From Collinsella sp. An2 (GTDB lineage: Bacteria; Actinomycetota; Coriobacteriia; Coriobacteriales; Coriobacteriaceae), in assembly GCF_002160065.1 (NCBI RefSeq), contig NZ_NFJW01000005.1:1-64000 (forward strand): 64,000 nucleotides of DNA, in the 5' to 3' direction. The notes below the pieces were generated by a model that saw only the letters and a program-made list of their open reading frames with translations, did no database searches and was not told the DNA's origin. Below, one piece after another: positions 8,383-40,001 of the stretch. How positions within the stretch are numbered: position 1 is the stretch's first letter; every line of letters starts with the position of its first letter. The position numbers and the translations under genes were made by a program.

Positions 8383-9495
8383 CTACGCTCCTGCGACCGC
8401 AACGCCCGCCGCGGCGGCGAGGTCCGCCTCCTCGGGGTAATAGATGCCCCAGTCGTAGCGCAGCCGCGTCATGGTGTCCATAACATCCGCCGCATAGTCG
8501 ATGAGCTTGGCTTTCGATTCGTCGCCCGCCGCAGCCGCCTCGAGGTCGGCCATCTCATAGGCGAGGGCATACGCCTCCTCGCCCTCCTCCACGATCTCGC
8601 GATGCCCGTCTTCGGTCCACACAATGCTTGCGCGGTCGGCGCGCGGATAGTCGTTGATCTCCAGGTAGCACTTGTCGAAGCTGATGACCGCGCGCTTGGG
8701 CTGCTTGGAATGAAGCGACAGCGAGAACACGCCCAGCTGGCCCTCGGCGTTGCGTGTCACGAAACCGCTCGTCTGGTCGACGCCCGTGACGGCGCGGTTG
8801 GCAAGCGAAACCACCTCGTCGGGGTGGCTCGCCATGAAGATACGCGCCACGGTGAGCGCATAGACGCCAATGTCCAGCATGGCTCCGCCCGCCAGGCGCG
8901 GGTTGTAGAACCGGTTGGTAAGATCGCCGTACTCCTTGAAGCTGCCGAAGTTCACCTGCGCAAGGTTCATGGCGCCAAACTCGCCTGAGGCTGCGCGGGA
9001 GCAGAGCTTCGCATAGAGCGGCATGTGCAGGATGGTCGTGGCGTCCATGAGCACCACGCCGTGCTCGGCGGCAAGGGAGCGGGCCTCGGCCAGCTCGGCG
9101 CTGTTGAGCGTGATGGCCTTCTCACAGAGCACGTGCTTGCCGGCGGCCAGCGCGTCGCGCAGGAAGGAGATGTGGGTGTTGTGCGGCGTGGTGATGTATA
9201 CCGCGTCGATATCGGGGCTCGCATAGAGTTCGTCGAAGCTGCCGAACACGCGCTCTACGCCGTAACGCTCGGCAAAGGCGACGGCCTTTTCGTGCGTGCG
9301 ATTTGCCACGCCGACCAGCTTGCGCCCGGCGAGCCCCATGGTCTGCGCCATCTGGTTGGCGATGGCGCCGCAGCCGATCACCGCCCAGCGCAGATGCGGG
9401 GCGCTAAAGATGTCCTTGGGAAACGGTTTGCCCTGCACCGCTTTATAAGCGGCGGCAGCGGCAGCAGCAGAATCGAGGGGCGTGGACGAAGACAT
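8383..9495 (-). CDS. Gfo/Idh/MocA family NAD(P)-dependent oxidoreductase
   Basis: 370-residue sugar-dehydrogenase-like protein. Rossmann motif WAVIGCGAIANQMAQTM (about residues 37-53) binds NAD(P), and the catalytic-region motif HVLCEKAITLN (EKxx in the family) lies near residue 127. The C-terminal half is the alpha/beta substrate domain. It resembles dihydrodiol/1,5-anhydrofructose-type members, but substrate cannot be set from sequence. The first 20 residues are an Ala-rich extension. Start has GGAGGTCTTCCACC; a TATAAT box at 9570-9575 on the minus strand could be its -10. Co-oriented with metA with a 71-bp gap. Confidence 0.88.
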   Translation of the reverse strand: MSSSTPLDSAAAAAAAYKAVQGKPFPKDIFSAPHLRWAVIGCGAIANQMAQTMGLAGRKLVGVANRTHEKAVAFAERYGVERVFGSFDELYASPDIDAVYITTPHNTHISFLRDALAAGKHVLCEKAITLNSAELAEARSLAAEHGVVLMDATTILHMPLYAKLCSRAASGEFGAMNLAQVNFGSFKEYGDLTNRFYNPRLAGGAMLDIGVYALTVARIFMASHPDEVVSLANRAVTGVDQTSGFVTRNAEGQLGVFSLSLHSKQPKRAVISFDKCYLEINDYPRADRASIVWTEDGHREIVEEGEEAYALAYEMADLEAAAAGDESKAKLIDYAADVMDTMTRLRYDWGIYYPEEADLAAAAGVAVAGA

Positions 9496-21388: not shown

Positions 21389-22477
21389 TCAGCCGCCGAT
21401 CTGTGACATAAAGCGCTCGGTGCCTTCGATAACCTCGTGTTCCTGCGGCTTGTGCGCGATTGCATCGCGATAGATGGCCAGCACGCGCGCGTCATCCCCG
21501 GCGCGTAGGGCGTCGCGCACCGAGTATTCCGCATCCGAGAACAGGCAGGGTCGAATAGCCCCGTCGGCCGTCAGACGCATGCGATTGCACTGCGAGCAGA
21601 AATGGTTTGACATAGCCGAAATGAAGCCAACCGTTCCCGCCGCCCCCGGAAAACGCCAATACCGAGCGGGTCCGGCACCCGAGGGGCCGGAGCCCTCCCC
21701 CACCGGCTCGAGCGCGCCCAGGCCGGCGGCAACGCCAGCCTCGGAAATCCGCTCTCGCAGCTCCTCCGAAGGCACCGTATCGCTCGCGTCCCACGCGCTC
21801 GCATCGACGCCGCCCGGGCAATGCGGGTCTGGGCCCTGGCGGGGCGCCTCGGCAACGTCATGGGCGCGCGCCGTACCCGTGCTTTCGTCGCCGATGGGCA
21901 TGTACTCGATAAACCGCACGTGCACCGGCCGCTCCACCGAAAGACGCGCAAGCCCAAACACGTCCTGCTGCAGGCGCCGAACCACCACGCAGTTCACCTT
22001 TACAGGGTCAAACCCCCATGTCAGCGCGGCATCGATACCGCGAAGCGTCTGCTCGAGCCTGCCTAGACGCGTGATCTGCGAGAACTGGCGGGGGTCGAGC
22101 GTGTCCAGAGAAATGTTTACCCGGTCGAGGCCCGCCTCCCTGAGCTCGGGCGCAAGACGCGGCAGCAGGGCACCGTTGCTGGTAAGCGAGATGTCCTCGA
22201 TGCCCGGAATGGCCCGCAGCTCACGCACGAGCGGTACGATGCGATGCGACACAAGCGGCTCGCCACCCGTAAGGCGCACGCGGCGGATGCCCTCATCGGC
22301 AACGAGCCGCACAAAATGGGCAATCTCCTCGGCGGAGAGCAGCTCGCCGTGTGCGCGCGGCGGCACGCCCTCTTCGGGCATGCAGTAGACGCAACGGAAG
22401 TTGCACTTGTCGGTTACGGCAATCCGCAGGTAGGAGATACCGCGACCAAAACCGTCATGAAGTTCATGGGTGGACAT
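21389..22477 (-). CDS. moaA: GTP 3',8-cyclase MoaA
   Basis: 362 residues. A radical SAM enzyme that rearranges GTP in the first step of molybdenum cofactor synthesis. The N-terminal cluster motif is TDKCNFRCVYCMPEEGV (CxxxCxxC), followed by TGGEPLV and the typical SLDTLDPRQF. The second cluster is in CSQCNRMRLTADGAIRPCLF, as in MoaA. Around residues 205-265 there is a poorly conserved Gly/Ser/Pro-rich insertion. The start has GGGAGGGCGC upstream. With the MoaC-MobB fusion it covers early steps and one late step; moaE, moaD and moeA are not in the window. Confidence 0.95.
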   Translation of the reverse strand: MSTHELHDGFGRGISYLRIAVTDKCNFRCVYCMPEEGVPPRAHGELLSAEEIAHFVRLVADEGIRRVRLTGGEPLVSHRIVPLVRELRAIPGIEDISLTSNGALLPRLAPELREAGLDRVNISLDTLDPRQFSQITRLGRLEQTLRGIDAALTWGFDPVKVNCVVVRRLQQDVFGLARLSVERPVHVRFIEYMPIGDESTGTARAHDVAEAPRQGPDPHCPGGVDASAWDASDTVPSEELRERISEAGVAAGLGALEPVGEGSGPSGAGPARYWRFPGAAGTVGFISAMSNHFCSQCNRMRLTADGAIRPCLFSDAEYSVRDALRAGDDARVLAIYRDAIAHKPQEHEVIEGTERFMSQIGG

Positions 22478-22564
22478 GCGCCCTCCCTGCCCGTCTGCTT
22501 ATTATTCCCACATGAGGATAATAACACGGCGCAACAGGCGCAACGTCAACGGGCCAAACGGGCT

Positions 22565-22604
22565 GCGGGGCCCACGCGACCAAGAAACGTCGCGCGGGCC
22601 CCGC
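22565..22604 (-). terminator. Strong hairpin after the ABC exporter operon
   Basis: GCGGGGCCC / GGGCCCCGC stem extended by CGCGAC / GTCGCG, 70 nt beyond the exporter stop. No clear U-run follows on the minus strand, so termination may be partial. Confidence 0.5.
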
Positions 22605-22674
22605 AATGCGTACGGCTTCGGCCAGAGCGGGCGCGCCTGCACAGCCGCAGCCAGCGCGCCCTTATTCCACAGGC

Positions 22675-24795
22675 CTAGTCAAGCTCCTTCAGCCCCTGGC
22701 AGAGCTTCCAGTACTCGCCATGCAGCGCGTAGAGCTCCTCGTGCGTGCCGCGCTCGATGATGCGCCCGTGATCGAGCACCATGATCGCGTCGGCGTTGCG
22801 TACGGTGGACAGCCGATGGGCGATCATGAACGTCGTGCGGCCACGCATAAGTGCATCCATGCCACGCTCGATCAGGGCCTCGGTACGCGTGTCGATAGAG
22901 CTCGTCGCCTCATCCAAAATGAGCACCGGCGGGTCTGCGACCGCGGCGCGGGCGATGGCCAAGAGCTGGCGCTGCCCCTGCGAGAGGTTCGCGCCGTCGG
23001 AGGTGACCATGGTGTCGTACCCCTGCGGCAGACGCCGGATAAAGCTGTCGGCATTTGCCAGGTGCGCCGCGTGACGCACCTCCTCGTCTGTGGCGTCGAG
23101 CTTGCCGAAGCGGATGTTCTCCGCGATGGTGCCCGTAAACAGGTGCGTGTCCTGCAGCACGATGCCCAGGCTGCCGCGCAAGCTTGCCTTCTGGATGTTC
23201 TTGACGTTGATGCCGTCGTAGGTGATCTCGCCCTCGTCTATGTCGTAGAAGCGGTTGATGAGGTTGGTGATGGTGGTCTTGCCGGCGCCCGTGGAGCCCA
23301 CGAACGCGATCTTCTGACCAGGCTTTGCAAACAGGTTGAGGTCGTGCAGCACCTCGTGACCGGCTTCGTAGCCAAAGCTCACGTCGTGGAAGCGCACGTC
23401 GCCGCGAAGCGGGATGAGGCCCGTTGCCAGCACCGTGCCATCCACGCCGATGGCCGTGGTCTGGGCGAGGGCGCCTTGGTCCTCCGCCGGGGCGTGTGAG
23501 GCGGCGTCGATGGCGCCCATGCCGCCCGCGTCAGCCACGGCGCCCGCACAGCCCGCACAGCCCGTACCGCCCGCGCCGACCGCCGCAGCAGCCGTGCAGC
23601 GCACCGTCGCATCCGCGCTGCCCGCGTCGGTCGCGGCGCCCCGGCCGCCCGTGCCGCCCGCGTCAGCCACGGCGCCCGCGGCCATCGCACCAGCCGCACC
23701 GCCCGCCACCGGCACCAGCGCGCCCCAGGCGCCCAGGCCCATGCCGTCGGGCAGCTGCCAGGCCCACGTGTCCTTGCCGGTCTTGACCAGACGAACCTTG
23801 CCCTCGTCCACCTCAGGCTTCTCCTTCATGGCCGCAAACACGCGCTCGGCGCCGGCCAGGGCCGAAAGCAGGAAGTTCGACTGCTGCGTAAACTGGTTGA
23901 TCGGCAGCGCCGTCTGACGCACAAACACCAGGTAGCTCGCCAGCGCGCCCACATCGGTGAGCCCCGCGATGGCCATGAAGCCGCCCAGCACCGCCACGAT
24001 CGCGTAGTTCACGTAGCTGATAGACACGACCGCAGGGATCATCGACGCGGCATAGGCCTGCGCGCCGGTGCCCGCCACGCGCAGCCGCTCGTTCTTCTCG
24101 CGGAAGGCGTCGACGTTGGGCGCCTCGTGGTTAAAGACCTTGACGACCTTCTGGCCGGTCACCATCTCTTCGATATAGCCGTCAAGCTCACCCAGCACGC
24201 TCTGCTGCCGCTGGAAATAGCTGCGGCTTTTCTTGGTGGAGAAGCGAATGTAGGCGAACATGGCAACGTAGCCCACCACCACAAGCAGGCTCAGCTGCCA
24301 GTTCAGCACAAAGATCATGACCAGCGTGCCCGCGATCTGGATGAAGCTCTGGATCACGAGGGCGAAGCTGTTGTTCATGGCCTCGGCCACGGTGTCTACG
24401 TCGTTGGTGAAGTAGCTCATGATGTCGCCGCGGCTGCGCGTGTCGAAGTAGCGCAGCGGCAGCGTCTGGATGTGAGCAAACAGGTCGCGGCGAATGTCGA
24501 AGAGCACCTTCTGCGCCGCGTGCACCATAAGCTGCGTGTAGCCCAGAGCCGCCACCACACCCGTCGCGTAGATGATGGCGGTCGCGATCACGCACCACAC
24601 GAAGCCGTCGAAGTCACCCGCGGCCAGGCGGTCGACCACGGGGCGAATCATGTAGGTGCCCACCAGGTTGGCCACAGCCGAGATACTCACCAGCACGGCC
24701 ACAGCCAGGAAGAGCAGCTTATGCCTGCCCATGTACGACAATAGCTCGCGCAGGGTGCGCATGAGGTTTTGAGGCTTGTTTCCGGGAGCCGGCAT
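22675..24795 (-). CDS. ABC exporter half-transporter (TMD-NBD), downstream subunit
   Basis: 706 residues, multidrug-type exporter half. Six hydrophobic helices fill about 1-320, the nucleotide-binding domain about 465-706: Walker A GSTGAGKTTI, signature NLSQGQRQLLAIARA, Walker B VLILDEATSSIDTR. Between them lies an unusual Gly/Ala linker (about residues 350-455) with repeated VADAGG blocks, not present in the sister gene. It overlaps the upstream half-transporter by one base (TGATG), so the two probably form a heterodimer like BmrCD/LmrCD. Regulated with the MarR gene at the head of the operon. Substrate unknown; drugs, lipids or peptides are possible. Confidence 0.92.
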   Translation of the reverse strand: MPAPGNKPQNLMRTLRELLSYMGRHKLLFLAVAVLVSISAVANLVGTYMIRPVVDRLAAGDFDGFVWCVIATAIIYATGVVAALGYTQLMVHAAQKVLFDIRRDLFAHIQTLPLRYFDTRSRGDIMSYFTNDVDTVAEAMNNSFALVIQSFIQIAGTLVMIFVLNWQLSLLVVVGYVAMFAYIRFSTKKSRSYFQRQQSVLGELDGYIEEMVTGQKVVKVFNHEAPNVDAFREKNERLRVAGTGAQAYAASMIPAVVSISYVNYAIVAVLGGFMAIAGLTDVGALASYLVFVRQTALPINQFTQQSNFLLSALAGAERVFAAMKEKPEVDEGKVRLVKTGKDTWAWQLPDGMGLGAWGALVPVAGGAAGAMAAGAVADAGGTGGRGAATDAGSADATVRCTAAAAVGAGGTGCAGCAGAVADAGGMGAIDAASHAPAEDQGALAQTTAIGVDGTVLATGLIPLRGDVRFHDVSFGYEAGHEVLHDLNLFAKPGQKIAFVGSTGAGKTTITNLINRFYDIDEGEITYDGINVKNIQKASLRGSLGIVLQDTHLFTGTIAENIRFGKLDATDEEVRHAAHLANADSFIRRLPQGYDTMVTSDGANLSQGQRQLLAIARAAVADPPVLILDEATSSIDTRTEALIERGMDALMRGRTTFMIAHRLSTVRNADAIMVLDHGRIIERGTHEELYALHGEYWKLCQGLKELD

Positions 24796-26690
24796 CAGCG
24801 CTCACCCCCTTCCACAGACCCCTGTTGGGGCGGGGTTGTTTTAGATGATTCGGAGACAGAGGGCGCAGGGGCCTCCGCCACAGCGCGGCCCCCTTCGCGG
24901 GCACCATCCGCGGCGCGACCCATTTCGGCCTCTTCCCCCGTTGAGTCCCGAGAGCCCTGTTCGGCTTGCATCTGCTTGGTCTGAGACTCGTAGATCTCCT
25001 GGTAGATGCTGTCGTGCGCAAGCAGCTCCTCGTGCGTGCCCACCGCATGCACGCGGCCGTCGTCCAGCACGACGATCTGGTCGGCAGACATCACGGAGCT
25101 CACGCGCTGGGCGATGATGATCTTCGTCACGCCGGTGAGCGCCGCCAACGCCGCGCGGATGTCGGCCTCGGTGGCCATGTCCACCGCGCTTGTGGAGTCG
25201 TCAAAAATGAGCACCTTCGGATGCTTGAGCAGCGCACGGGCGATGCACAGGCGCTGCTTCTGCCCGCCGGATACGTTCACGCCGCCCTGACCCAGGTCGT
25301 AGTCGAATCCGCCGGGCAGCCGGTCCAAGAACTCGTCCACGCGGGCCTGCCGGCACGCCTCTACCAGGTCTTCCTGCGTGGCGTGCGCGTCGCCCCACAG
25401 CAGGTTCTCGCGCACCGTGCCGCTAAACAGCACGTTTTTCTGCAGCACGATAGAGACGGCGTCGCGCAGCACGGCCAGGTCGTAGTCGCGCACGTCGTGG
25501 CCGCCCACCATCACCGTGCCCTCGGTGGCGTCGTACAGGCGCGGAATAAGCTGCACGAGCGTCGTCTTGCCCGAGCCCGTGCCGCCCAGCACGCCCACGG
25601 TGGAGCCGGCGGGAATGGACAGCGTCACATGCTCCAGCACGTTTGCCTGGGCGTCTGCACGGTACTTAAAGGACACGTCGCAAAACTCGATCGAGCCGTC
25701 CGCGACCTCGGTCGCCGCGCCCTTGGGCGAGGTGAGGTCCACCGGCTCATCCAGCACCTCGCAGATGCGATGGATGCTCGCAAGCGACCGCGTAAGCAGC
25801 AAAAACACGTTCGAGATCATGATGAGCGAGTTCATAATCTGCATCACGTAGGAAAGAAATCCGGTGAGCTCGCCCACGGCCAGCGCGCCGCCCAGGATCA
25901 TCTGGCCACCAAACCACATGATGAGCGTGGTCACGGTGTACATAGACACATAGAGCACAGGCATGTTGAGCACCGCGAACCGGAAGGTATGCTCGCTTGT
26001 GCCGGCCAGCTCCTCGTTCACGCGGCGGAACTGGTCGCACTCGTAGTCGCCGCGCACGTACGCCTTGACGGCGCGCACGGCGGTGAGCATCTCCTGCACC
26101 ACGTCGTTCAGATGGTCGACGGTGCGCTGCAGCACGCCGTAAAGCGGGCCCACGTGCCGCACGATCAGCACGAGCGCGATCGCCATGACAGGTGCCACGG
26201 TCACAAACACCAGCGCAAGCGTAGAGTTGAGGTAAAACGCCAGGCCAAAGCCAATAATGAGCATCACCGGGCCGCGCACCATGGGGCGAAAGCCCGCGTT
26301 GAGGGCGTTTTGGATCACGGTGACGTCGGTCGTCATGCGCGTGACGAGCGAGCTTGTCTCGAAGTGGTCGAGGTTGGTGAAGGAGTAGTCCTGCACGCGC
26401 TCGTATTCGGCTGCGCGCAGATGCGCGCCCAGGCCGTAGGAGGCACGTGCCGCAAAGCGCGCGTACAGAAGGCCCGTGATAAGCGAGAGCACCGCGCACA
26501 CAGCCATGTACATACCCTGGCGCAGGATGTAGTCCACGTCGCGCGTGGCTACGCCCACGTCGATGATGTCGGCCATAAGGATAGGGATGACCATCTCGAA
26601 GGCGCTCTCAACAACAACGAGCAGCATGCCGATAATGGCGTCGCGGCGGTACTGGCCCAAAAAACCCACGATGCGGCGAAACTCATGCAT
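24795..26690 (-). CDS. ABC exporter half-transporter (TMD-NBD), upstream subunit
   Basis: 631 residues. Six transmembrane helices (about 1-310) then an ATPase domain with Walker A LGGTGSGKTTLVQL, signature VSGGQKQRLCIARA and Walker B VLIFDDSTSAVD. The residue after the Walker B aspartate is Asp instead of the catalytic Glu (FDDST), the pattern of the degenerate site in heterodimeric exporters such as LmrC/BmrC, whereas the partner has the canonical DEA. The C-terminus is a charged low-complexity tail. Its start overlaps the end of the MarR gene by 8 bp, with AAGGAGG as ribosome site inside it. Confidence 0.92.
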   Translation of the reverse strand: MHEFRRIVGFLGQYRRDAIIGMLLVVVESAFEMVIPILMADIIDVGVATRDVDYILRQGMYMAVCAVLSLITGLLYARFAARASYGLGAHLRAAEYERVQDYSFTNLDHFETSSLVTRMTTDVTVIQNALNAGFRPMVRGPVMLIIGFGLAFYLNSTLALVFVTVAPVMAIALVLIVRHVGPLYGVLQRTVDHLNDVVQEMLTAVRAVKAYVRGDYECDQFRRVNEELAGTSEHTFRFAVLNMPVLYVSMYTVTTLIMWFGGQMILGGALAVGELTGFLSYVMQIMNSLIMISNVFLLLTRSLASIHRICEVLDEPVDLTSPKGAATEVADGSIEFCDVSFKYRADAQANVLEHVTLSIPAGSTVGVLGGTGSGKTTLVQLIPRLYDATEGTVMVGGHDVRDYDLAVLRDAVSIVLQKNVLFSGTVRENLLWGDAHATQEDLVEACRQARVDEFLDRLPGGFDYDLGQGGVNVSGGQKQRLCIARALLKHPKVLIFDDSTSAVDMATEADIRAALAALTGVTKIIIAQRVSSVMSADQIVVLDDGRVHAVGTHEELLAHDSIYQEIYESQTKQMQAEQGSRDSTGEEAEMGRAADGAREGGRAVAEAPAPSVSESSKTTPPQQGSVEGGER

Positions 26691-28107: not shown

Positions 28108-28680
28108 TTACACGAGCTCGTCCGTTTGCTCCTGGAGCAGCGCCGCATAACGCCACATGATGGAGATGGAAAAACACACGAGCGCAGCAAGTAGCGACCC
28201 CACATCGATCGCGACGCCGTTCTGCCCGCCCACGAGGAGGACAAACGGGTTGGGCCAATAGGAAATGGAGAGGGTCGGCGCAAAGTCTAGCAGCACATTG
28301 CCTCGAAATATCAAGGCCAGCAGTGCGTTGACCACGAATAGACCACCGAGTCCGGCTATAAGCCGCGCATGCCGCACAGTAAATGGCGATTCGCCGCGCG
28401 ACATGTCTCGAAAGATGCTCAAAAGCGTCGCCTCGAGGACGAGCGCTATGAACAGCCACATAACGGCAGGAAAGATGTGGATGTTAAAGTCCTCGCCCTC
28501 GAGCACACCGAAAGACGTGAAATGCGCACCTAAGCTCATCTGATGCCCAGCAATGACACCACAAGCGACCGCGATGGCAATGGTCACCACCATGAACACC
28601 GCAAAGACGGCGCTCAACACCGACCCCAACCTCTTCAGTCGGCGCATGGAAGCCTCGATATGTTCGACGCTCTTCGACAT
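28108..28680 (-). CDS. DUF2975 integral membrane protein
   Basis: 190 residues with four hydrophobic segments (about 20-45, 70-92, 105-128, 150-175) and short loops. The MSRGESPFTVRHARL segment between helices 2 and 3 is the hallmark of DUF2975, a family of unknown function usually encoded with a YozG-like XRE regulator, as here. ATG at 28680 follows AAGGAGAACC; an artificial in-frame extension reaches 28929. It may sense membrane state for the regulator or act in self-protection; both are inference from context. Confidence 0.85.
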   Translation of the reverse strand: MSKSVEHIEASMRRLKRLGSVLSAVFAVFMVVTIAIAVACGVIAGHQMSLGAHFTSFGVLEGEDFNIHIFPAVMWLFIALVLEATLLSIFRDMSRGESPFTVRHARLIAGLGGLFVVNALLALIFRGNVLLDFAPTLSISYWPNPFVLLVGGQNGVAIDVGSLLAALVCFSISIMWRYAALLQEQTDELV

Positions 28681-28852: not shown

Positions 28853-29092
28853 TCAGACCCGCTGTAGCAGGCTTTGCACCAAAATGTCGGCCATTTCGTC
28901 ACAGCCATCTTCTGTAACCATGTCACCACGACGCAGCTGCTCGATCAGATCATCGAGGCAATCTGTCTCCCCACGTTCAAGCTGTTTGAACTTGCTGTAA
29001 TATTCGGCGTTCAAACCCAGGACTCCACCGCTGCGCGCATTGAATATGATGGCACCGTCGCCATCTGGCAGCACAACATTAAATTTGGACAT
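28853..29092 (-). CDS. Small protein resembling the isolated N-terminal domain of radical SAM/SPASM peptide maturases
   Basis: 79 residues from ATG 29092 (alternatives at 29098 and GTG 29107). The opening MSKFNVVLPDGDGAIIFNAR, then GGVLGLNAEYY and LIEQLRRGDMV, match the 80-residue segment that precedes the CxxxCxxC core in many SPASM-type radical SAM enzymes that modify ribosomal peptides. No cluster-binding core follows in any frame before the DUF2975 gene, so it is either a stand-alone leader-binding-type module or the stump of a deleted enzyme. A 12-bp tandem repeat (GATATTAGTGAA twice, about 29112-29135) and a 15-codon ORF (29092-29139) ending TGATG over the start lie directly upstream. 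It follows the ABC transporter genes. Confidence 0.55.
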   Translation of the reverse strand: MSKFNVVLPDGDGAIIFNARSGGVLGLNAEYYSKFKQLERGETDCLDDLIEQLRRGDMVTEDGCDEMADILVQSLLQRV

Positions 29093-29162
29093 CACCATAT
29101 GAAACACCGTCTTTCACTAATATCTTCACTAATATCCATGGTCGTTAACTAAGGACGAACAC

Positions 29163-29954
29163 TTAGCTCCGAAGTCGATGGACTCCAAGACACACGGCAG
29201 CTACCGCAACTGCAATCAACGTGCTCGCAAGGGAAAACTGCAGTGTAGGCACGACGTAAGCATCGATGTAAACTGGAGCACATATGTACATCCACCAACT
29301 CATCTGAGCTTGCACGACATGTGGAATCCAAAATCCCAAGTAATTTGCCAGAAGCAACGTTCCGAGAACAAACGTTCCTTTTCCGAGCAACGAGATGGCA
29401 ACTGAAGCGATTATTACGAACGAGATGCAGAGAGACGAGCAGAGCAAGAGACGGAACGCAAACTCGCCAATCTGTGACAGCTGCACCGGTGTGCATAGCA
29501 TCATTGCCATAGCGGCTGCAACGCTATAGAGAACAAACGCTCCCACCACATAGATAGTCGCTACAATACCACGAATAAATAAAATACCGGCATATTCTTG
29601 ACCTTTACCTGCCGACAACTGGCACGCTTTACCGAACAAGCGATCACCATCAAGCCGACCAACCACAAGAAGCGCAATCATCGGGAAAAACAACGAATGA
29701 GCCAGAGGGGCAACACATATGGTAAGCACGTTGGCACCCAAAGGAATCATGTCGACATCCACATACGTTGGATCGGGGAAAAAGCCCCATGCCATAGATG
29801 CCGGTATGTTGTCTACATAGGCAATCCATGGGCCACTTGTCACCATATAACAAAGCGTCACGAGTGAATAGCAAATCAGAAGCATCTGAGGGATCTTGAG
29901 CCTCCATGCGCGACTCATTTCGAAACGCAGCTCACGTGATAACTGTTCCATCAT
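29163..29954 (-). CDS. ABC-2 type transporter permease (second membrane subunit)
   Basis: 263 residues with about six hydrophobic helices, no ATPase motif. Similar in size and context to LanE/LanG-type or other ABC-2 permeases that work with a separate ATPase. Its ATG overlaps the preceding permease stop by four bases (ATGA), so they are translationally coupled and probably form a heterodimeric channel. Base composition is lower in GC than the flanking genes. Role inferred from neighbours: export of, or immunity to, the Cys-rich peptide encoded at the operon head. Confidence 0.75.
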   Translation of the reverse strand: MMEQLSRELRFEMSRAWRLKIPQMLLICYSLVTLCYMVTSGPWIAYVDNIPASMAWGFFPDPTYVDVDMIPLGANVLTICVAPLAHSLFFPMIALLVVGRLDGDRLFGKACQLSAGKGQEYAGILFIRGIVATIYVVGAFVLYSVAAAMAMMLCTPVQLSQIGEFAFRLLLCSSLCISFVIIASVAISLLGKGTFVLGTLLLANYLGFWIPHVVQAQMSWWMYICAPVYIDAYVVPTLQFSLASTLIAVAVAAVCLGVHRLRS

Positions 29955-30817
29955 TTGCCCCGAATCTTAAACGCTGCTACGCCGACTATGAGAGCGACAA
30001 ATACGCTTTCAACTGCATAGACAACTATCGATGAAATGCTCAATCGACCAAAAGCAAGCGCGCAAGAGAACAGCAAATAGGGCGCCGGCGTCAACATAAC
30101 CCAGTCTGCGTTTGCCAGAGGACGGCCGCCTTTATCAAACCAGCTAATCGTCGAAGCATAAAGAAACAACACCGTAATACCAACAACAGAGACGAACGGG
30201 TTACGTGTAACGTGGTATAGCGCCAGCGATTGCGCAACGACTGACATAAGCAGAAACACGTTTATCAAACTGCACCCTGCGAACCTCATCAGAGCGGCAC
30301 CATCAATCACGGCACCGTAACGCGTCGCAGCCGCTAAAAAGCTAACAGCGCACATCACAGCATACCCACTGCCGACTACCAACGAGCAAGCCAAAAACTC
30401 TGAAACAACCCCACGCGCCGCCGTCAATCCTCGCGCTCGCGAGACGCAATAGCTCTTCGAACGGTAGTTGGAAGATGCCATTCCCACAGCGCAGGCAACA
30501 GCCAAGGGAACCCACAGGAACGTCAGAAAAAAAGAATTACGAATGGCGGTTCCGATCAAGTCATGGGGATCAATGCAGTTGGCAACATACCCGATCACGT
30601 TACCGACCACATAAGCATTTGCTATGTCTTGCGACAAGAAAATGTTGTCGCCGGTTGTCATCACCGAGTAGAGTCCAAGCACAATTACACATGCCGCTAT
30701 TACCCATGTTGTCCAGACTGAAGGCAAATGCCTTACATCAGCTGCTAACCTGCGAAGCATCGCTTTCGTGCGCCAGCAGCCTTCCGTAATACTCTTCGAG
30801 CGATTCATGTTCATCAT
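29951..30817 (-). CDS. ABC-2 type transporter permease (first membrane subunit)
   Basis: 288 residues, about six hydrophobic helices (first at about 35-55), cytoplasmic positively charged N-terminus. No recognised motif beyond the ABC-2 permease layout. The first ATG (30817) and the next (30814) have GAAGAGG upstream, giving an 80-bp overlap with the end of the ATPase gene; a later ATG at 30760 would cut this to 23 bp. Such long overlaps suggest tight coupling. Works with the ATPase upstream and the permease downstream. Confidence 0.72.
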   Translation of the reverse strand: MMNMNRSKSITEGCWRTKAMLRRLAADVRHLPSVWTTWVIAACVIVLGLYSVMTTGDNIFLSQDIANAYVVGNVIGYVANCIDPHDLIGTAIRNSFFLTFLWVPLAVACAVGMASSNYRSKSYCVSRARGLTAARGVVSEFLACSLVVGSGYAVMCAVSFLAAATRYGAVIDGAALMRFAGCSLINVFLLMSVVAQSLALYHVTRNPFVSVVGITVLFLYASTISWFDKGGRPLANADWVMLTPAPYLLFSCALAFGRLSISSIVVYAVESVFVALIVGVAAFKIRGK

Positions 30818-31676
30818 ATGCCTCTTCGACAGTTATGCCGTTTTGTACTAAAAGTCCTACGAGAGAGCCAAGACTGCATGCTGGATTCTTGATTTCGAGG
30901 CCTTGATCCCCATCCAGCGCCACTGAGTCTGTATAGCTCTTATCCTCTAGCAACCGTTTTGCCCGGAGAACGTCGGAAACTTTGAGCTTCACGGTAACGT
31001 CGCTCGCGCCGTTCAGCTCTTCCCGTCCAACCTCTTGCAACACCCGGCCATGACTCATAAACACAAACCGTGTGGCAATACGTTGCAGCTCGGGGAGGTT
31101 GTGGCTGGAGAGCAGGATGGTCTTTCCGTCGTCCTCACGCAGCGTACGGATGATTTCACGTACCTCAGCAATGCCCGTGGGGTCCAACCCGTTAATAGGC
31201 TCATCCATGATGATAATTGCCGGGTTCCCCAGCAACGCAGTTGCAATGTCGAGGCGTCGCTTCATGCCCAAAGAATAGCGTTTCACCTTCAGGTTCTGAG
31301 CATCGAGCAGATTGACTTTCTTGAGCACCTCGACAACCTGTCCTTTGGGAACGCCCCACTCCGCACAGCGAACTATGAGGTTGCCACGGGCGCTCATCTC
31401 TTGGTATGCGCCGCTTGCGTCAGGCACGTACCCGATGTTCATGCGTGCTTTCAACAGTCCGCTTTGGCCCGTCGCCCCCAAAAGCGCGATGCTGCCGGAG
31501 GATGGACGTGTAAGGCCAACCAAGATATTGATGAGGGTGCTCTTGCCGGCGCCATTCTCTCCAATGAGTGCGCAGACATCTCCCTCGTAAACGGTCATGT
31601 TCACCGAATCCAATACGACACGCTTGCCATATCGTTTCGTAATGTCATGAACCGTGATGACTCCGTTGTTGTTCAT
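30738..31676 (-). CDS. ABC transporter ATP-binding protein (bacteriocin/lantibiotic-immunity type)
   Basis: 312 residues. Walker A GENGAGKSTLINIL (near residue 37), signature YSLGMKRRLDIATALLG, Walker B AIIIMDEPINGLDP and the H-loop SSHNL. The YSLGMKRRL signature and the C-terminal extension of about 90 residues are typical of ATPases in the LanF/BcrA group that drive ABC-2 permeases for self-protection from, or export of, antimicrobial peptides. No strong ribosome site precedes the ATG at 31676. It is separated from the Cys-rich peptide gene by 137 bp containing a perfect 11-bp hairpin. Confidence 0.88.
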   Translation of the reverse strand: MNNNGVITVHDITKRYGKRVVLDSVNMTVYEGDVCALIGENGAGKSTLINILVGLTRPSSGSIALLGATGQSGLLKARMNIGYVPDASGAYQEMSARGNLIVRCAEWGVPKGQVVEVLKKVNLLDAQNLKVKRYSLGMKRRLDIATALLGNPAIIIMDEPINGLDPTGIAEVREIIRTLREDDGKTILLSSHNLPELQRIATRFVFMSHGRVLQEVGREELNGASDVTVKLKVSDVLRAKRLLEDKSYTDSVALDGDQGLEIKNPACSLGSLVGLLVQNGITVEEAYDEHESLEEYYGRLLAHESDASQVSS

Positions 31677-31726
31677 TTTTACACCGCATTTACAATTCTG
31701 CGCCTTAGCAGGCGTTTTACTGCAAG

Positions 31727-31761
31727 CGGCCCCACTGGAGGATGGCTATTCAGTGGGGCCG
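31727..31761 (-). other. Hairpin between peptide gene and transporter genes
   Basis: Perfect 11-bp stem CGGCCCCACTG / CAGTGGGGCCG with a 13-nt loop, 52 nt beyond the peptide stop. There is no U-run, so it resembles the stabilising or partially terminating stems placed after highly expressed bacteriocin precursor genes. Confidence 0.55.
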
Positions 31762-31813
31762 ACCACCGTTGTCAAGCAATCTGACAGACGTTCGTTAAGA
31801 CAAAACATCAAGC

Positions 31814-31924
31814 CTAGTGAACGTTACAAAAATAGATTCCTTTGCACGCACACGACGGATTGTAGTTAGCACAACCCTTCAGGCCGCAGTTATTACCACC
31901 ACTGACAACTGCATACCATTCCAT
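31814..31924 (-). CDS. Short Cys-rich peptide, candidate RiPP/bacteriocin precursor
   Basis: 36 codons. The peptide starts MEWYAVVSGGNNCGLKGC and ends KGIYFCNVH, with five cysteines at 13, 18, 25, 27 and 33, and few Ser/Thr, which argues against a lanthipeptide. A Gly-Gly pair at 9-10 could be a processing site. The ribosome site AAGGAAGGGAGG lies just upstream, and a TTGAAA/TACAGT promoter (17-bp spacing) lies 39-67 bp before the ATG. The short N-terminus followed by a Cys-rich core recalls sactipeptide precursors such as subtilosin in shape, not in confirmed homology. It heads an ABC transporter operon ending with a radical-SAM N-terminal-like domain. Could also be an unmodified disulfide peptide. 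No database comparison was possible. Confidence 0.65.
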   Translation of the reverse strand: MEWYAVVSGGNNCGLKGCANYNPSCACKGIYFCNVH

Positions 31925-31962: not shown

Positions 31963-31991
31963 ACTGTAATTCGATAACTATCAACTTTCAA
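31963..31991 (-). promoter_or_regulatory. Promoter of the Cys-rich peptide operon
   Basis: -35 TTGAAA (31986-31991), 17-bp spacer, -10 TACAGT (31963-31968) on the minus strand, with AT-rich DNA upstream; start predicted near 31955, leader about 30 nt. Confidence 0.55.
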
Positions 31992-35184: not shown

Positions 35185-35382
35185 CTACGCCCTGGCGGGA
35201 GCCTCCGTCGCAGCCTCAGGTGCCGCGGCTTCAGCCGCGGCAGCCTCTGCCGCCTCCTCGGCGGCGCGCCTCTCCAGCCAGGCCGCGCGACGGTCGCGAC
35301 GCGACACGACGCCCAGCACCACAGCCGGAATAAAGGCAACGACCACCAGCGCCATCAGCGGGGCAAACACGTAGATGAACAT
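35185..35382 (-). CDS. 65-residue membrane-anchored protein at the end of the rnf operon (in the place of rnfB)
   Basis: One hydrophobic helix (about residues 5-27) followed by a basic RRDRRAAWLERR turn and an Ala/Glu-rich tail. The start is 12 bp after the rnfA stop, in the same operon. In many Rnf operons rnfB follows rnfA and encodes a similar N-terminal helix plus a long ferredoxin-like part with three or four 4Fe-4S clusters; here no cysteine at all is present. It may be a small accessory or structural subunit, or the remnant anchor of RnfB. Not recognised as a named family. Confidence 0.6.
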   Translation of the reverse strand: MFIYVFAPLMALVVVAFIPAVVLGVVSRRDRRAAWLERRAAEEAAEAAAAEAAAPEAATEAPARA

Positions 35383-35394
35383 CCAGATACCCCC

Positions 35395-35991
35395 TTACAC
35401 GAAGAGACCGCCGGCAATGCCAGCAACACCCGTAAATGCAAGCGCAACCAGCGAAGCGGTGATAAGCGAGATGGGCAGGCCACGCAGTACGCCGGGAACC
35501 AGGCGCTCATCGATGCGGTCGCGCAGGAACGCGAAGGCGACGATGGCAATGAAGGCACCCAAGCCGGCACCGAAGGAGCTGCCGAGCGCAACGTCGAACG
35601 TCGAGGTGGCAGCCACAGCGGCGTTGCCCATCGGCACGGCAAGCATAGCCGCGTTCACGGCGACCACAGAGGCCGTCATGAAGGTGCGGTCGCGCACCTC
35701 GCGGTCCTTGCCGGCAGCCATAACGGCGGCGATGACGTACGAGACGGTCACGCCAACCACAAGATAGGCCATAGGCGCAAGGTAGGAGATGCCCCACGGC
35801 TGGAACAGACCGGTGTACAGTGGCCATCCGATGAGCCCCACCAGGAAGGACGCGGCCCACACCATGCCGCCGAAGCGGAAGGCGTCCTGCGGGCGCTCAG
35901 CCACAAGCAGCACCGACACCATGCCGACCAGCTGCACAAAAACGAGATTCTGGTCGAGCGCGGCGGTGAAAAGGGCGTTCAGAAGCTCCAT
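35395..35991 (-). CDS. rnfA: Rnf complex subunit RnfA
   Basis: 198 residues, about six transmembrane helices, RnfA/NqrE family. RnfA and RnfE form the pseudo-symmetric membrane core with an intramembrane iron-sulfur site; the LVFVQLVGM loop and LGSSFGAGLGAF segment are in the expected places, though the usual loop cysteine (NCA in most homologues) is not obvious: the equivalent region reads VNAAML. The ATG shares one base with the rnfE stop (TAATG). The gene is followed by the 65-residue anchor protein. Confidence 0.82.
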   Translation of the reverse strand: MELLNALFTAALDQNLVFVQLVGMVSVLLVAERPQDAFRFGGMVWAASFLVGLIGWPLYTGLFQPWGISYLAPMAYLVVGVTVSYVIAAVMAAGKDREVRDRTFMTASVVAVNAAMLAVPMGNAAVAATSTFDVALGSSFGAGLGAFIAIVAFAFLRDRIDERLVPGVLRGLPISLITASLVALAFTGVAGIAGGLFV

Positions 35992-36638
35992 TACCGCTCA
36001 CCTCCCTGGGACGCAGCGCTCTTCTTGGCAGCGTCGACGATGGAATTGATGAAGGTCGTCACAAGCGCCAGCACCAGAAGCGAGCCGGCAGGCGTGCCAA
36101 AGATGGCGATAGGCGTGGCGGCGAGCTCGTTCATGGTGAGGCCAAAGATCTCGCCCGTGGAGAACATGCCGTTGATGAGGCCGACGAACGCCAGCGTGGC
36201 CACCGTGCACACCGCGCCGAAGACAGCGGTGCCGCACGAAGAGGTGCGGGCCGGCGAGGCCGCGTAGCCATCGTCCATGACAAACGCCATGGCAAGCGCG
36301 TTCACCGCGGCGATGGAAACATACATACCAAGGTTCTCGTTGATGAGCGGGTCGACCACGCGCAGCGCAAAGCCGCAGATGGTGGCCACGGCGGAGCTCA
36401 CCATGAGCATCACCGGCAGGTAGGAGAACTTGCCGGTCACGGCGCGCAGCGGGTGCGCAAGGGCAGCCATCACAAGAATGGAGACCGCGCTCACCACGCC
36501 GATCGCAAAGCCGTTCTCAAGCGACGTCGCCACGTACAGACCCGGCAGCGACCCCGCGACGACCACGAACGCCGGCGAATGCACGAGCTCGTGCAGGCGC
36601 GCGTTCTGGTCTTGAAGCACAGATTCATGCAGTGCCAT
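35991..36638 (-). CDS. rnfE: Rnf complex subunit RnfE
   Basis: 215 residues with six predicted membrane helices, RnfE/NqrD family. Segments SPAFVVVAGSLPGLYVAT and AVNALAMAFVMDDGYAA align with the conserved halves of the family (usual loops end in GxCP...; here LPGLYV). It pairs with RnfA in the membrane. ATG at 36638 follows GGGAGG; the longer frame to 36788 overlaps rnfG and is rejected. Coupled to rnfA by a one-base overlap. Confidence 0.82.
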   Translation of the reverse strand: MALHESVLQDQNARLHELVHSPAFVVVAGSLPGLYVATSLENGFAIGVVSAVSILVMAALAHPLRAVTGKFSYLPVMLMVSSAVATICGFALRVVDPLINENLGMYVSIAAVNALAMAFVMDDGYAASPARTSSCGTAVFGAVCTVATLAFVGLINGMFSTGEIFGLTMNELAATPIAIFGTPAGSLLVLALVTTFINSIVDAAKKSAASQGGER

Positions 36639-36639
36639 C

Positions 36640-37263
36640 TTAGTTACCTCCCAACGCGGCATAGGCCTCGAAGGCAATGTTGAGGTCCGACACCACCGCG
36701 GTCGAGGTGAACGTGGCGCCCGAGACGCCGTCCACCTGGGTCTCGCCCGAGCCGGCCTCGTCAAGCGTGAGGGTGCCCGATGCGGCAAGGCCCTCGAAGG
36801 TGCCGAAGAAGTCGTCGGTCAGGGCGTTGGAGCCGATGCCGTCGGTCTCGTCCTCGGCCACGACCTGGATGCCGGCGACGGTGCCGTCGGAGGCGATGCC
36901 GATCATGAGCTCGACGTCACCGTGGTAGCCCGTCGATGACACATCGAAGACGTAGTCGCCGGAATCGGTCTGGTACACGGAGTTCAGGCCGTCGATGGCA
37001 GGAGCGGTAACCTGCTCGAAGGAACCGGCGTCGGGGAACAGCAGAGCGCGCTGCGCACCGCCCTTGGCCTCGTCCAGGCGCTGGTCGGCATCGGCAAAGG
37101 CCGTGCTGCCCCACTCGCCGGCGTAATACACGCCGGCCGTCACGCCGCCGCAAACGCCGGCAGCGATGAGGATGGCAAAAAAGGTGTACAGGGAGCCATT
37201 GCGGTGCCGCTTGATCCAAGAGGGCTTCTTGGGGGCGGCTGAAGTCTCGTTAGACGAGGGCAT
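36640..37263 (-). CDS. rnfG: Rnf complex subunit RnfG (FMN-binding)
   Basis: 207 residues. One N-terminal membrane anchor (about 22-45) and an extracytoplasmic FMN-binding domain. The covalent flavin attachment motif is SGATFTSTAV near the C-terminus (S-G-A-T-x-T/S), with the Thr before F as the likely phosphoester site. The ATG at 37263 has GGGAGG upstream and overlaps the rnfD stop by 14 bp. In Rnf it passes electrons between RnfD and the RnfA/E core while sodium or protons are pumped. Confidence 0.9.
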   Translation of the reverse strand: MPSSNETSAAPKKPSWIKRHRNGSLYTFFAILIAAGVCGGVTAGVYYAGEWGSTAFADADQRLDEAKGGAQRALLFPDAGSFEQVTAPAIDGLNSVYQTDSGDYVFDVSSTGYHGDVELMIGIASDGTVAGIQVVAEDETDGIGSNALTDDFFGTFEGLAASGTLTLDEAGSGETQVDGVSGATFTSTAVVSDLNIAFEAYAALGGN

Positions 37264-38182
37264 TCTTGACACCTCCCACCGGCTGAGACCGCGTGTAGCG
37301 ATCGATCAGCGGAACGAACATGTTCATGAACAGAATGGAGAACGCCACGCCCTCGGGGGCAGAGGCGAACAGACGCACGAGCGAGGTGACCAGGCCGCAG
37401 CCCACACCGAAGATGATCTTGCCCTTGGGCGTCATGGGCGTGGTGGTGTAGTCGGTCGCCATGAAGAACGCGCCCAGCGCAAGACCGCCGGAGAGCAGCT
37501 CGAAGAGCACGTCCTGGCCGGCGATGCCGGTGATGACGGCCACCGTGGCAATGAACGGCAGCGTCGCCCAGGCGTCCACGACCTTGATCGCCAGCAGGAA
37601 GATGTAGCCGATGAGCAGGGTCAGGATGCAGGTCTCGCCGAGCGCGCCCGCATGGTTGCCCAGGAAGAGGTCGAGGTAGCTGTACGGCATGGAGCCCTGA
37701 GCCGCCATGGCAAGCGGCGTGGCGCCGGTCACGGCGTCAAGCGACTTGCCCACGACATCCGGATACGAGGCGAGCGCCGAAGGCAGCGCGACCATCACGA
37801 ACACGCGGCCGGCGACGGCGGGGTTCGCGATGTTGCAGCCGATGCCGCCGAAGAGCATCTTCACGATGACGATGGCGAACGCCGTGCCCAGCATAGCGAC
37901 CCAAAACGGGCAGTTGGCGGGCAGGGTGAACGCAAAGAGCATGGCCGTGACCACGCAGGACATGTCGCCTGCGGTGGACTCGCGCTTCATGATGATGCAG
38001 CACAGGTGCTCACAGACGAGCGCCGTGGCAATGCACACCAGCACAAGCAGCGGAGCGCCCAGGCCGTAGAGCACGGTCGCAGCGATAAGCGTGGGCACCA
38101 GCGCCAGGCACACGGCGCCCATGACCTTGAACGTGGAGCTTTTCCCGTGGAAGTGAGGGGAGGCTTCGTTGATGAGATTCAT
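37250..38182 (-). CDS. rnfD: Rnf complex subunit RnfD
   Basis: 310 residues, eight to ten membrane helices, NqrB/RnfD family. The covalent FMN motif is DAVTGATPLAMAA (S/D-G-A-T context; the Thr in GATPLA), and the segment GGIGCNIANPAVAGR is a family signature. It forms the ion-translocating membrane subunit. Start has GGAGG about 11 bases upstream; only 6 bp separate it from the rnfC stop. Confidence 0.93.
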   Translation of the reverse strand: MNLINEASPHFHGKSSTFKVMGAVCLALVPTLIAATVLYGLGAPLLVLVCIATALVCEHLCCIIMKRESTAGDMSCVVTAMLFAFTLPANCPFWVAMLGTAFAIVIVKMLFGGIGCNIANPAVAGRVFVMVALPSALASYPDVVGKSLDAVTGATPLAMAAQGSMPYSYLDLFLGNHAGALGETCILTLLIGYIFLLAIKVVDAWATLPFIATVAVITGIAGQDVLFELLSGGLALGAFFMATDYTTTPMTPKGKIIFGVGCGLVTSLVRLFASAPEGVAFSILFMNMFVPLIDRYTRSQPVGGVKNALV

Positions 38183-38188
38183 GACGGC

Positions 38189-39526
38189 TTACGCCTCCTT
38201 CGCAGGTTGGGTACGGCGAGCGACGTCGCTGCGGTAGAAGCCCTTGCCCTCGCGGATCGAGGCGGTGATGCGGCGATGCGCCGGGCACGCGAATGCACAC
38301 GAACCGCACTCCATGCAGTTCATGACCGCGAACTCGTCCAGCTTCACCACATCGTGGCTGCGCGAGGCGGCGTCCAGCTGGAAGGGCATAAGGCCCAGCG
38401 GGCAGGCGCGCACGCAGCGGCCGCAGCGGATGCAAGGCGTCTCGTCCGGCAGGATCGCGGCGTCGTCAAGGCACAGGATCGCGTTGTTGGCCTTGAGGAT
38501 CGGGCAGTCGATGTCGGTGATGGTGCGGCCCATCATGGGTCCGCCCATGATGATCTTGCGCGGCTCCTTCACCAGGCCGCCCGTGGCCTCGACCACGTCG
38601 TGCACACTCATGCCGATAGGAACACGGTAGTTGCCGGGGTTCTTCACGCAGTCACCCGCGATGGTCACGGTCTTGCGCACCAGCGGCACGCCGTAGCGGA
38701 AGTACTCCTCGATACGCGAGACGGTGGTGACGTTGAGCACCAGGCAGCCGGCGTCCACGGGCAGACCGCCCGCAGGAACGGCGCGGCCGGTCGTGGCCTC
38801 GATGAGGACCTTCTCTCCGCCGGCGGGGTACTTCGTGGGAACCATGAGCACCTCGACGAGGTCGCCCGCGCCCTTCTCCTCGATCGCCTTGCGCAGGGCC
38901 TCCACGGCCTCGGGCTTGTTGTCCTCGACGCCGATCACGGCGGCGGGAATCTCAAGCGCGCGGGCGATGCGGACGACACCGTCCACGACGCGTCCGGGGT
39001 GCTCGATCATCTGGCGATAGTCGCTCGTGATGAACGGCTCGCATTCCATGCCGTTCACGACCACGAACTCGAACTTCTTTCCCGGAGGGCACTTCATCTT
39101 GAACCACGACGGGAACGATGCGCCGCCCAGGCCCACCACGCCCGAGGCGCGGACGCAATCGATGAACTCATCCTTGTTGGAGTACGTCGGCTTGGTGAGC
39201 GACGGATCGTTCTCCATCTTGCCGTCGGACTCGATCTGCACCACCGGCGCATGCTGGCCCGTGGGCAGCGTCTCCTCGGCGACCGAGGTCACCGTGCCCG
39301 AAACCGTCGCGTGGATGGGCGCGCACAGTCCCGTGCCGTCGCCGATGAGCGTACCGATGTAGACGTGGTCGCCCACGCTGACCACCGGCTTGCACGGAGC
39401 TCCGATATGCATGTTCAGCGGGATGCGAACCTGCTTGGGGGGCTCGATCGACGTGACGGGACAGTCTCGGGTGTCCTTACACTGGGGCGGATGTACACCG
39501 CCCAACGTCTTGTGCAGAGAGAACAT
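38189..39526 (-). CDS. rnfC: Rnf complex subunit RnfC (NADH-binding)
   Basis: 445 residues, cytoplasmic peripheral subunit. N-terminal sandwich-hybrid domain, then a Rossmann-like FMN/NADH domain (GLGGASFPSWFKMK, VVNGMECEPF), a soluble ligand-binding SLBB domain, and two 4Fe-4S motifs: CIRCGRCVRACPLGL and CMECGSCAFACPAHR. It oxidises or reduces NAD(H) at one end of the complex. The ATG at 39526 (MFSLHKTLGG) follows AGGGGATCT. First gene of the operon C-D-G-E-A; the order matches other Rnf operons except that rnfB is not found. Confidence 0.95.
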   Translation of the reverse strand: MFSLHKTLGGVHPPQCKDTRDCPVTSIEPPKQVRIPLNMHIGAPCKPVVSVGDHVYIGTLIGDGTGLCAPIHATVSGTVTSVAEETLPTGQHAPVVQIESDGKMENDPSLTKPTYSNKDEFIDCVRASGVVGLGGASFPSWFKMKCPPGKKFEFVVVNGMECEPFITSDYRQMIEHPGRVVDGVVRIARALEIPAAVIGVEDNKPEAVEALRKAIEEKGAGDLVEVLMVPTKYPAGGEKVLIEATTGRAVPAGGLPVDAGCLVLNVTTVSRIEEYFRYGVPLVRKTVTIAGDCVKNPGNYRVPIGMSVHDVVEATGGLVKEPRKIIMGGPMMGRTITDIDCPILKANNAILCLDDAAILPDETPCIRCGRCVRACPLGLMPFQLDAASRSHDVVKLDEFAVMNCMECGSCAFACPAHRRITASIREGKGFYRSDVARRTQPAKEA

Positions 39527-40001
39527 AGATCCCCTTCCCTCTTTCCCCTTCTGTAGCGAGGCGTGGCGTCGCCTCGCAACCCAGCACAATGCAAATATGC
39601 CAGCCATACAGTTTACCGTATTGCTTCACATTTTGAACACTTATTTGGGGTAATGCGTGCACCTCACACGCGATGTACGTGCGGGTTGATTGTTTGCGCG
39701 CGGGGATGAGGGGGCGCAGGCGCGGCTTGGCGAGCGCGAGACGGGCCGTCACCCGCGCGCCGCCGGGGAGGTGATGGCCAGGGTACGTGGGCCAAAGACT
39801 GGCAGGTACGGGCATCACCTGGCGGGCGGAGCGGTGCCTGGAGCGAGTGTGCGGTGGGCGGCGCCCGGAGCAGGGCGGGTGCGAACGCGAGTTGTGCTCG
39901 AGGCAGGCGCGCACTCAAACCAAGCACGGCACCCAAAGCAAGCGCTGCGCCCCATGCGATCGCACCCGAAACAAACGCCCGCCGTTCATACGATCGGAAT
40001 C
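39527..40001. other. 475-bp intergenic region upstream of rnfC
   Basis: Near rnfC there is a small GCGAGGCG/CGCCTCGC hairpin (about 39557-39580) and an AT-rich patch (39585-39655) likely to hold the rnf promoter. The rest is GC-rich, degenerate and repetitive, including three loosely related words of the type CACCCAAAGCAAGCGC at 39915-39985. No gene is seen. Confidence 0.5.

Follow-up and report, generated by a model that had tools for sequence, protein, structure and literature searches.

A probable decayed radical-SAM/SPASM cassette for a Cys-rich peptide in Collinsella sp. An2, with a retained ABC transporter that probably confers resistance

Does a short Cys-rich ORF at the head of an ABC transporter operon mark a working RiPP locus? 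We asked this question of a stretch of 64,000 nucleotides of Collinsella sp. An2 (contig NZ_NFJW01000005.1; hereafter the window), in which an earlier sequence-only reading had proposed a RiPP or disulfide bacteriocin locus. The ORF in question, 36 residues with five cysteines and one Gly-Gly pair (MEWYAVVSGGNNCGLKGCANYNPSCACKGIYFCNVH), is indeed present at 31814..31924 and lies on the minus strand, which had not been specified; the ribosome site claimed for it was also found and is strong, immediately 5' of the ATG (GGAAGGGAGGGA). ORFs that start with ATG, are 25-60 aa long, and have five or more Cys and a comparable ribosome site numbered 2 in the window, compared with 0-1 in each of 20 shuffles, and the second one (36780-36908) is an Arg-rich, GC-type frame. 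The proposed promoter TTGAAA-17-TACAGT does exist upstream of the peptide (31963..31991, minus strand), but sites of this type are not more frequent than in shuffles (1 found in the window vs 1.8 expected), so that a lone site is no more than chance, the one point in its favor being its position.

The peptide matched no Pfam or NCBIfam family, and tblastn of its 36 aa, a check that the sequence-only reading had suggested for Collinsella and other Coriobacteriia, returned only the peptide itself from 3 genomes of the genus and 67 of the family. Related cassettes were instead reached via the transporter and a maturase remnant described below. When the 1,835 small ORFs in the window were compared, the peptide ranked first against the precursors of G020 (score 66; next ORF 44), G031 (score 60; next ORF 38), and G015 (score 43; next ORF 39). 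The score of 66 against the G020 precursor was reached by 11 of 100,000 shuffles of the peptide in which the first residue and the cysteines were kept fixed, while the similarity to more distant precursors, taken one by one, was not above chance. That the small ORF is a chance frame is therefore highly improbable: its absence from Pfam and NCBIfam and the lack of relatives in plain tblastn of the 67 family genomes would speak for such a frame, but it is the top match among the 1,835 ORFs to two independent precursors, and its position and hairpin are the same as in relatives. Judged by these comparisons, the ORF is a real gene, the predicted precursor of a cassette found in related Coriobacteriaceae. 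A RiPP origin of the peptide is likewise supported, as matching precursors occupy the same place in relatives having a complete radical-SAM/SPASM maturase, where the precursor is also followed by a similar hairpin.

The hairpin described between the peptide and the transporter genes was found in the intercistronic region 31677..31813 (minus strand) as an 11-bp GC stem located before the ATPase (region z -2.6); because it has no U-tract, it is not an obvious terminator. Most related cassettes have a hairpin after the precursor, with a different sequence each time, and an Rfam search of 27.5-32.35 kb gave no match. As had been described, an ABC ATPase (312 aa, 30738..31676) and two permeases follow on the same strand as the peptide, permease A (288 aa, 29951..30817, about 7 hydrophobic segments) and permease B (263 aa, 29163..29954, about 6 hydrophobic segments). 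Beyond an 84-aa ORF, the minus strand continues with a 190-aa membrane protein that is a companion of the cassette (28108..28680, about 4 hydrophobic segments) and a Cro/C1-type HTH regulator (PF13443; 27771..28097), 65-75% identical to the HTH proteins beside related cassettes. A permease query in the search for related loci gave no match. Further downstream of the HTH, on the same strand, we noticed a radical-SAM gene of MoaA-like type and two paired half-size ABC exporters (21389-26690), which we judged unrelated because MoaA-like matches occur in nearly all relatives.

The ATPase retains intact Walker A, signature, and Walker B motifs, and its closest relative is the ATPase of G020 (56% over 207 residues). 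Its best NCBIfam model is TIGR03740 (lantibiotic protection), and both this match and the layout of one ATPase with two distinct permeases beside a peptide gene recall LanFEG transporters. However, the match is under the model's cut-off (191.5 bits, cut-off 309.75), and the locus is probably not a lanthipeptide one; among the cassette genes, no LanB/C, LanM, or similar dehydratase/cyclase was found. In LanF proteins, moreover, Glu replaces the Q-loop Gln (E-loop), whereas this position is Asp in the window ATPase and in all 14 aligned relatives.

A full cassette in relatives consists of a Cys-rich peptide, a hairpin, the ABC ATPase, two permeases, an RRE-type radical-SAM/SPASM maturase of about 430 aa, and an ABC exporter, and it additionally holds the membrane protein/HTH pair. 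The order in G020 (L052) is membrane protein, HTH, peptide, hairpin, ATPase, permease A, permease B, maturase (428 aa), and ABC exporter; the same gene set is found in G015 (L053) and in G026 and G039 (L047, L049), the last two with two peptides. The G052 cassette (L051) begins at a contig edge with the maturase, followed by the exporter, the membrane protein, and the HTH, the arrangement that an intact counterpart of the window locus should show. Precursors of intact cassettes are Cys-rich, 36-42 residues long, and start with M-x-W-I/V; peptides of G033 and G031 start with MNFY and MNIY, and those of G019/G027 with MEYI and MDWI. The radical-SAM domain PF04055 was present in all four full-length maturases checked with Pfam, and the SPASM model TIGR04085 was over its cut-off in full-length maturases where listed. 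In relatives, an RRE-like N-terminus, a CxxxCxxC radical-SAM core, and SPASM are joined in one protein, of which the window has the N-terminus alone. The G026 cassette also contains a stretch of undetermined bases, and the start of its ATPase is repeated (L047:10416-10937), probably an assembly gap. A second arrangement was seen in G019 and G027 (L055:8400-8743, L056:8250-8593), where two longer Cys-rich precursors of 54-56 residues (MEYIQKP..., MDWIQPT...) directly precede a 428-aa maturase of the same family.

The 84-aa ORF at 28853..29107 (minus strand) had been read as a radical-SAM N-terminal-like domain, and this identification was correct, but the truncation of the maturase had been overlooked. 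Among NCBIfam models, it best matches the N-terminal part of the radical-SAM RiPP maturase model TIGR04463 (E 9e-5, 21 bits), and its homologues in the 399 genomes of the order searched form the N-terminal 80 or so residues of proteins around 430 aa long, which adjoin permease A homologues in G026, G039, G020, G015, and G011. It shares 29-41% identity with residues 1-81 of full-length maturases and, aligned with five of them, stops at residue 80-81, just short of the radical-SAM core; by alignment, it amounts to the initial fifth of a maturase and comprises only the RRE/PqqD-like part. AlphaFold, run without alignment on the 80-residue remnant, gave a poor, low-confidence model (pLDDT 46). When maturases were used as tblastn queries on 26-33 kb of the window, residues 1-81 alone were matched and no catalytic part was found in any frame, and exporter queries on the same region fell on the ATPase gene and detected no exporter. 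A frameshifted rather than truncated maturase was also considered and rejected, as the catalytic part is absent from every frame of 26-33 kb. We infer that a deletion, and not a split gene, lies behind the loss, with a breakpoint that would become readable only against a close intact relative.

We then considered whether the missing enzyme might be supplied from another place in the genome (2.54 Mb, 99.87% complete). Searching all of it with the TIGR04463 model and a maturase profile revealed no replacement maturase, the matches being the remnant itself and generic or weak radical-SAM proteins such as MoaA. The remnant, used as query against the genome and viral contigs, found no related locus. 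ABC exporters are numerous, and the best matches among possible stand-ins for the lost exporter are just 20-30% identical. It is very unlikely that the RRE-like protein works with a maturase encoded elsewhere and that a modified peptide is still made. The truncation near the domain boundary, with a complete reading frame left, is compatible with such a function, and other RiPP systems do have discrete RRE proteins, RRE domains being known to bind precursor leaders (PMC11002830). Nevertheless, the genome holds no second enzyme of this type, and its sole SPASM match is a 381-aa protein between glycosyltransferase-like and acyltransferase-like genes, the others being MoaA-like or weak. Maturation of the window peptide is probably impossible, because no other maturase of TIGR04463 type was found in a genome of this completeness. 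With catalytic part and exporter missing and no replacement maturase found, the earlier view of a working RiPP locus is unsupported, and a precursor-plus-transporter pattern by itself is no proof of a working RiPP cluster.

The same genes have been lost in relatives. Maturase and exporter are jointly missing, with peptide and transporter kept, in the window, in G033, and in G041, and the breakpoints differ among the three. In G033 (L057; ATPase, peptide, permease A, permease B, scar, membrane protein, HTH), maturase residues 1-32 lead directly into the exporter's final 24 residues at the scar. G041 (L062) differs from the producer G015 by a single clean gap that opens at the maturase start and closes just beyond the exporter stop, and its peptide is identical to that of G015. 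A gap like that of G041 together with loss of the peptide was found in seven cassettes (G008, G009, G017, G043, and the second cassettes of G019, G020, and G027); G042 also has the maturase/exporter gap, its contig starting inside the ATPase. In an ATPase tree, which is a guide only as bootstrap is not settled and several branches are long, the window stands beside G020, G041 within the G015 group, and G033 apart, and the starred branches imply that the maturase label changed three or more times. The comparison covers one genome per species, which leaves the loss in the window without a date, and other strains of the window species may be intact. A possibly fourth decaying locus was noticed in G237, from another family of the order, with two related peptides (L059:6494-6640, 9350-9469), one of them with several cysteines replaced, an ATPase, and permease A, and no maturase within the 16 kb read.

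The seven cassettes without a peptide give a mixed answer to the expectation that the ORF would be conserved wherever the transporter is kept, as they retain the transporter; even so, the scar in G017, the one peptide-less cassette read base by base, still carries the peptide's ribosome site and start codon. The persistence of an intact ORF with a strong ribosome site after loss of the maturase, in the window as in G033 and G041, could suggest that the peptide now acts as a bacteriocin, either unmodified or with disulfide bonds, that leaves the cell through the ATPase/permease complex and needs no maturase. We regard this as unlikely, considering that the number of cysteines is odd (five), that intact cassettes encode their exporter as a protein of its own, which was lost along with the maturase, and that the peptide of the G015-type cassette is gone in seven cases lacking the maturase. 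Since the peptide opens the operon, a strong hairpin precedes the ATPase, and a conserved HTH gene lies nearby, the peptide might also be a signal or regulatory leader for the transporter genes and not a bacteriocin precursor; this is distinctly improbable, however, as the equivalent peptide in intact relatives accompanies a maturase and an exporter, and the seven cassettes do without it.

The transporter is under purifying selection in the relatives measured. In eight G015-type cassettes, ATPase, permeases, and HTH have no internal stops. Pairwise dN/dS is mostly 0.04-0.14 for the ATPase (with exceptions up to 0.26 in low-dS pairs and 0.94 in one nearly unchanged pair) and 0.17-0.40 for the permeases, and for the HTH it is under 0.1 in most pairs; in the cassettes lacking the peptide, the transporters measured are intact, with permease values mostly of 0.17-0.38. 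If non-producers keep an immunity pump, a transporter selected in the absence of peptide, maturase, and exporter is as predicted. Enterococci are known to carry orphan immunity transporters (PMC10598978), and a producer-to-cheater series is known in pneumococcal blp loci, where a secretion gene with a frameshift in the transporter is lost and immunity kept (PMC4739721). The window locus would follow the same pattern, but with a joint deletion of maturase and exporter and a different peptide chemistry.

We therefore favor, as the probable explanation, a decayed radical-SAM/SPASM Cys-rich peptide cassette in which the peptide and a recognition domain are left beside a pump that probably gives resistance. 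In the intact form, with the precursor ahead of the hairpin, the ATPase, two permeases, a maturase with an N-terminal recognition domain, and an exporter, the maturase would, by analogy, cross-link the peptide by thioethers that start from its cysteines, the exporter would release the finished and presumably antimicrobial product, and the ATPase and permeases would most likely serve as a self-protection pump, as their selection and position suggest. A deletion in the window genome would have taken the maturase from about residue 81 onward together with the exporter, while sparing the peptide, the pump, and the recognition domain. The window peptide, if made, would stay unmodified, and the pump would probably confer resistance to the product of related strains. 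The series of cassettes fits such a decay from producer to resistant non-producer, giving within one bacterial family a readable natural history from complete producers, through loss of maturase and exporter, to loss of the peptide with the pump under selection, and it singles out the ATPase/permease trio as a candidate immunity determinant. It is a rather remote prospect that the peptide, with or without the free recognition domain, was co-opted after loss of the maturase, for example as a decoy, sensor, or inducer tuning the pump to the peptides of producers.

Regarding known systems, TIGR04463 (rSAM_vs_C_rich) is the best NCBIfam match of five full-length maturases of relatives (240-308 bits) as well as of the remnant, and its partner peptide is Cys-rich like the nearby window precursor; all of these maturase matches are under the curated cut-off of 525, and the window keeps residues 1-80 only. 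The Clo7bot maturase TIGR04334 is the second-best match of the relatives' maturases (222-273 bits, cut-off 600). The Clo7bot peptide TIGR04333 weakly matches most of the length of the G015 precursor (E 0.7; 9.8 of 31 bits) and did not match the window peptide. Ranthipeptides are defined by a thioether from Cys to a non-alpha carbon, and among solved structures the maturase profile best matches a synthase of this kind, 5wgg (E 8e-24), which we take to be CteB (SCIFF). The PapB family was matched by the relatives' maturases as well, but the cut-offs of ranthipeptide families were not reached and the catalytic part of such synthases is absent in the window. Our literature search found no paper for Clo7bot, nor for Collinsella with radical SAM and bacteriocin. 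The locus would thus be a decayed representative of a known kind of RiPP, from a subfamily that has not been curated, and the comparison names a precursor family and a maturase subfamily that curated models miss.

A few neighboring observations may be added. Beyond ligA, the window holds on the minus strand an Rnf-type electron transport gene cluster (35185-39607), named by eye from the translations. In the window's genus, G001 carries a different cluster (L104:414-5019) with a 460-aa RRE-type radical-SAM enzyme and a second protein that has SPASM-like cysteines. Finally, G049 (L105:7844-9281) encodes a related maturase of 439 aa with a short ORF, MELIYSPVVEEDRIDYGVETCAGDYGQECGYACMGSDN, immediately after it, a candidate precursor placed after rather than before its enzyme.
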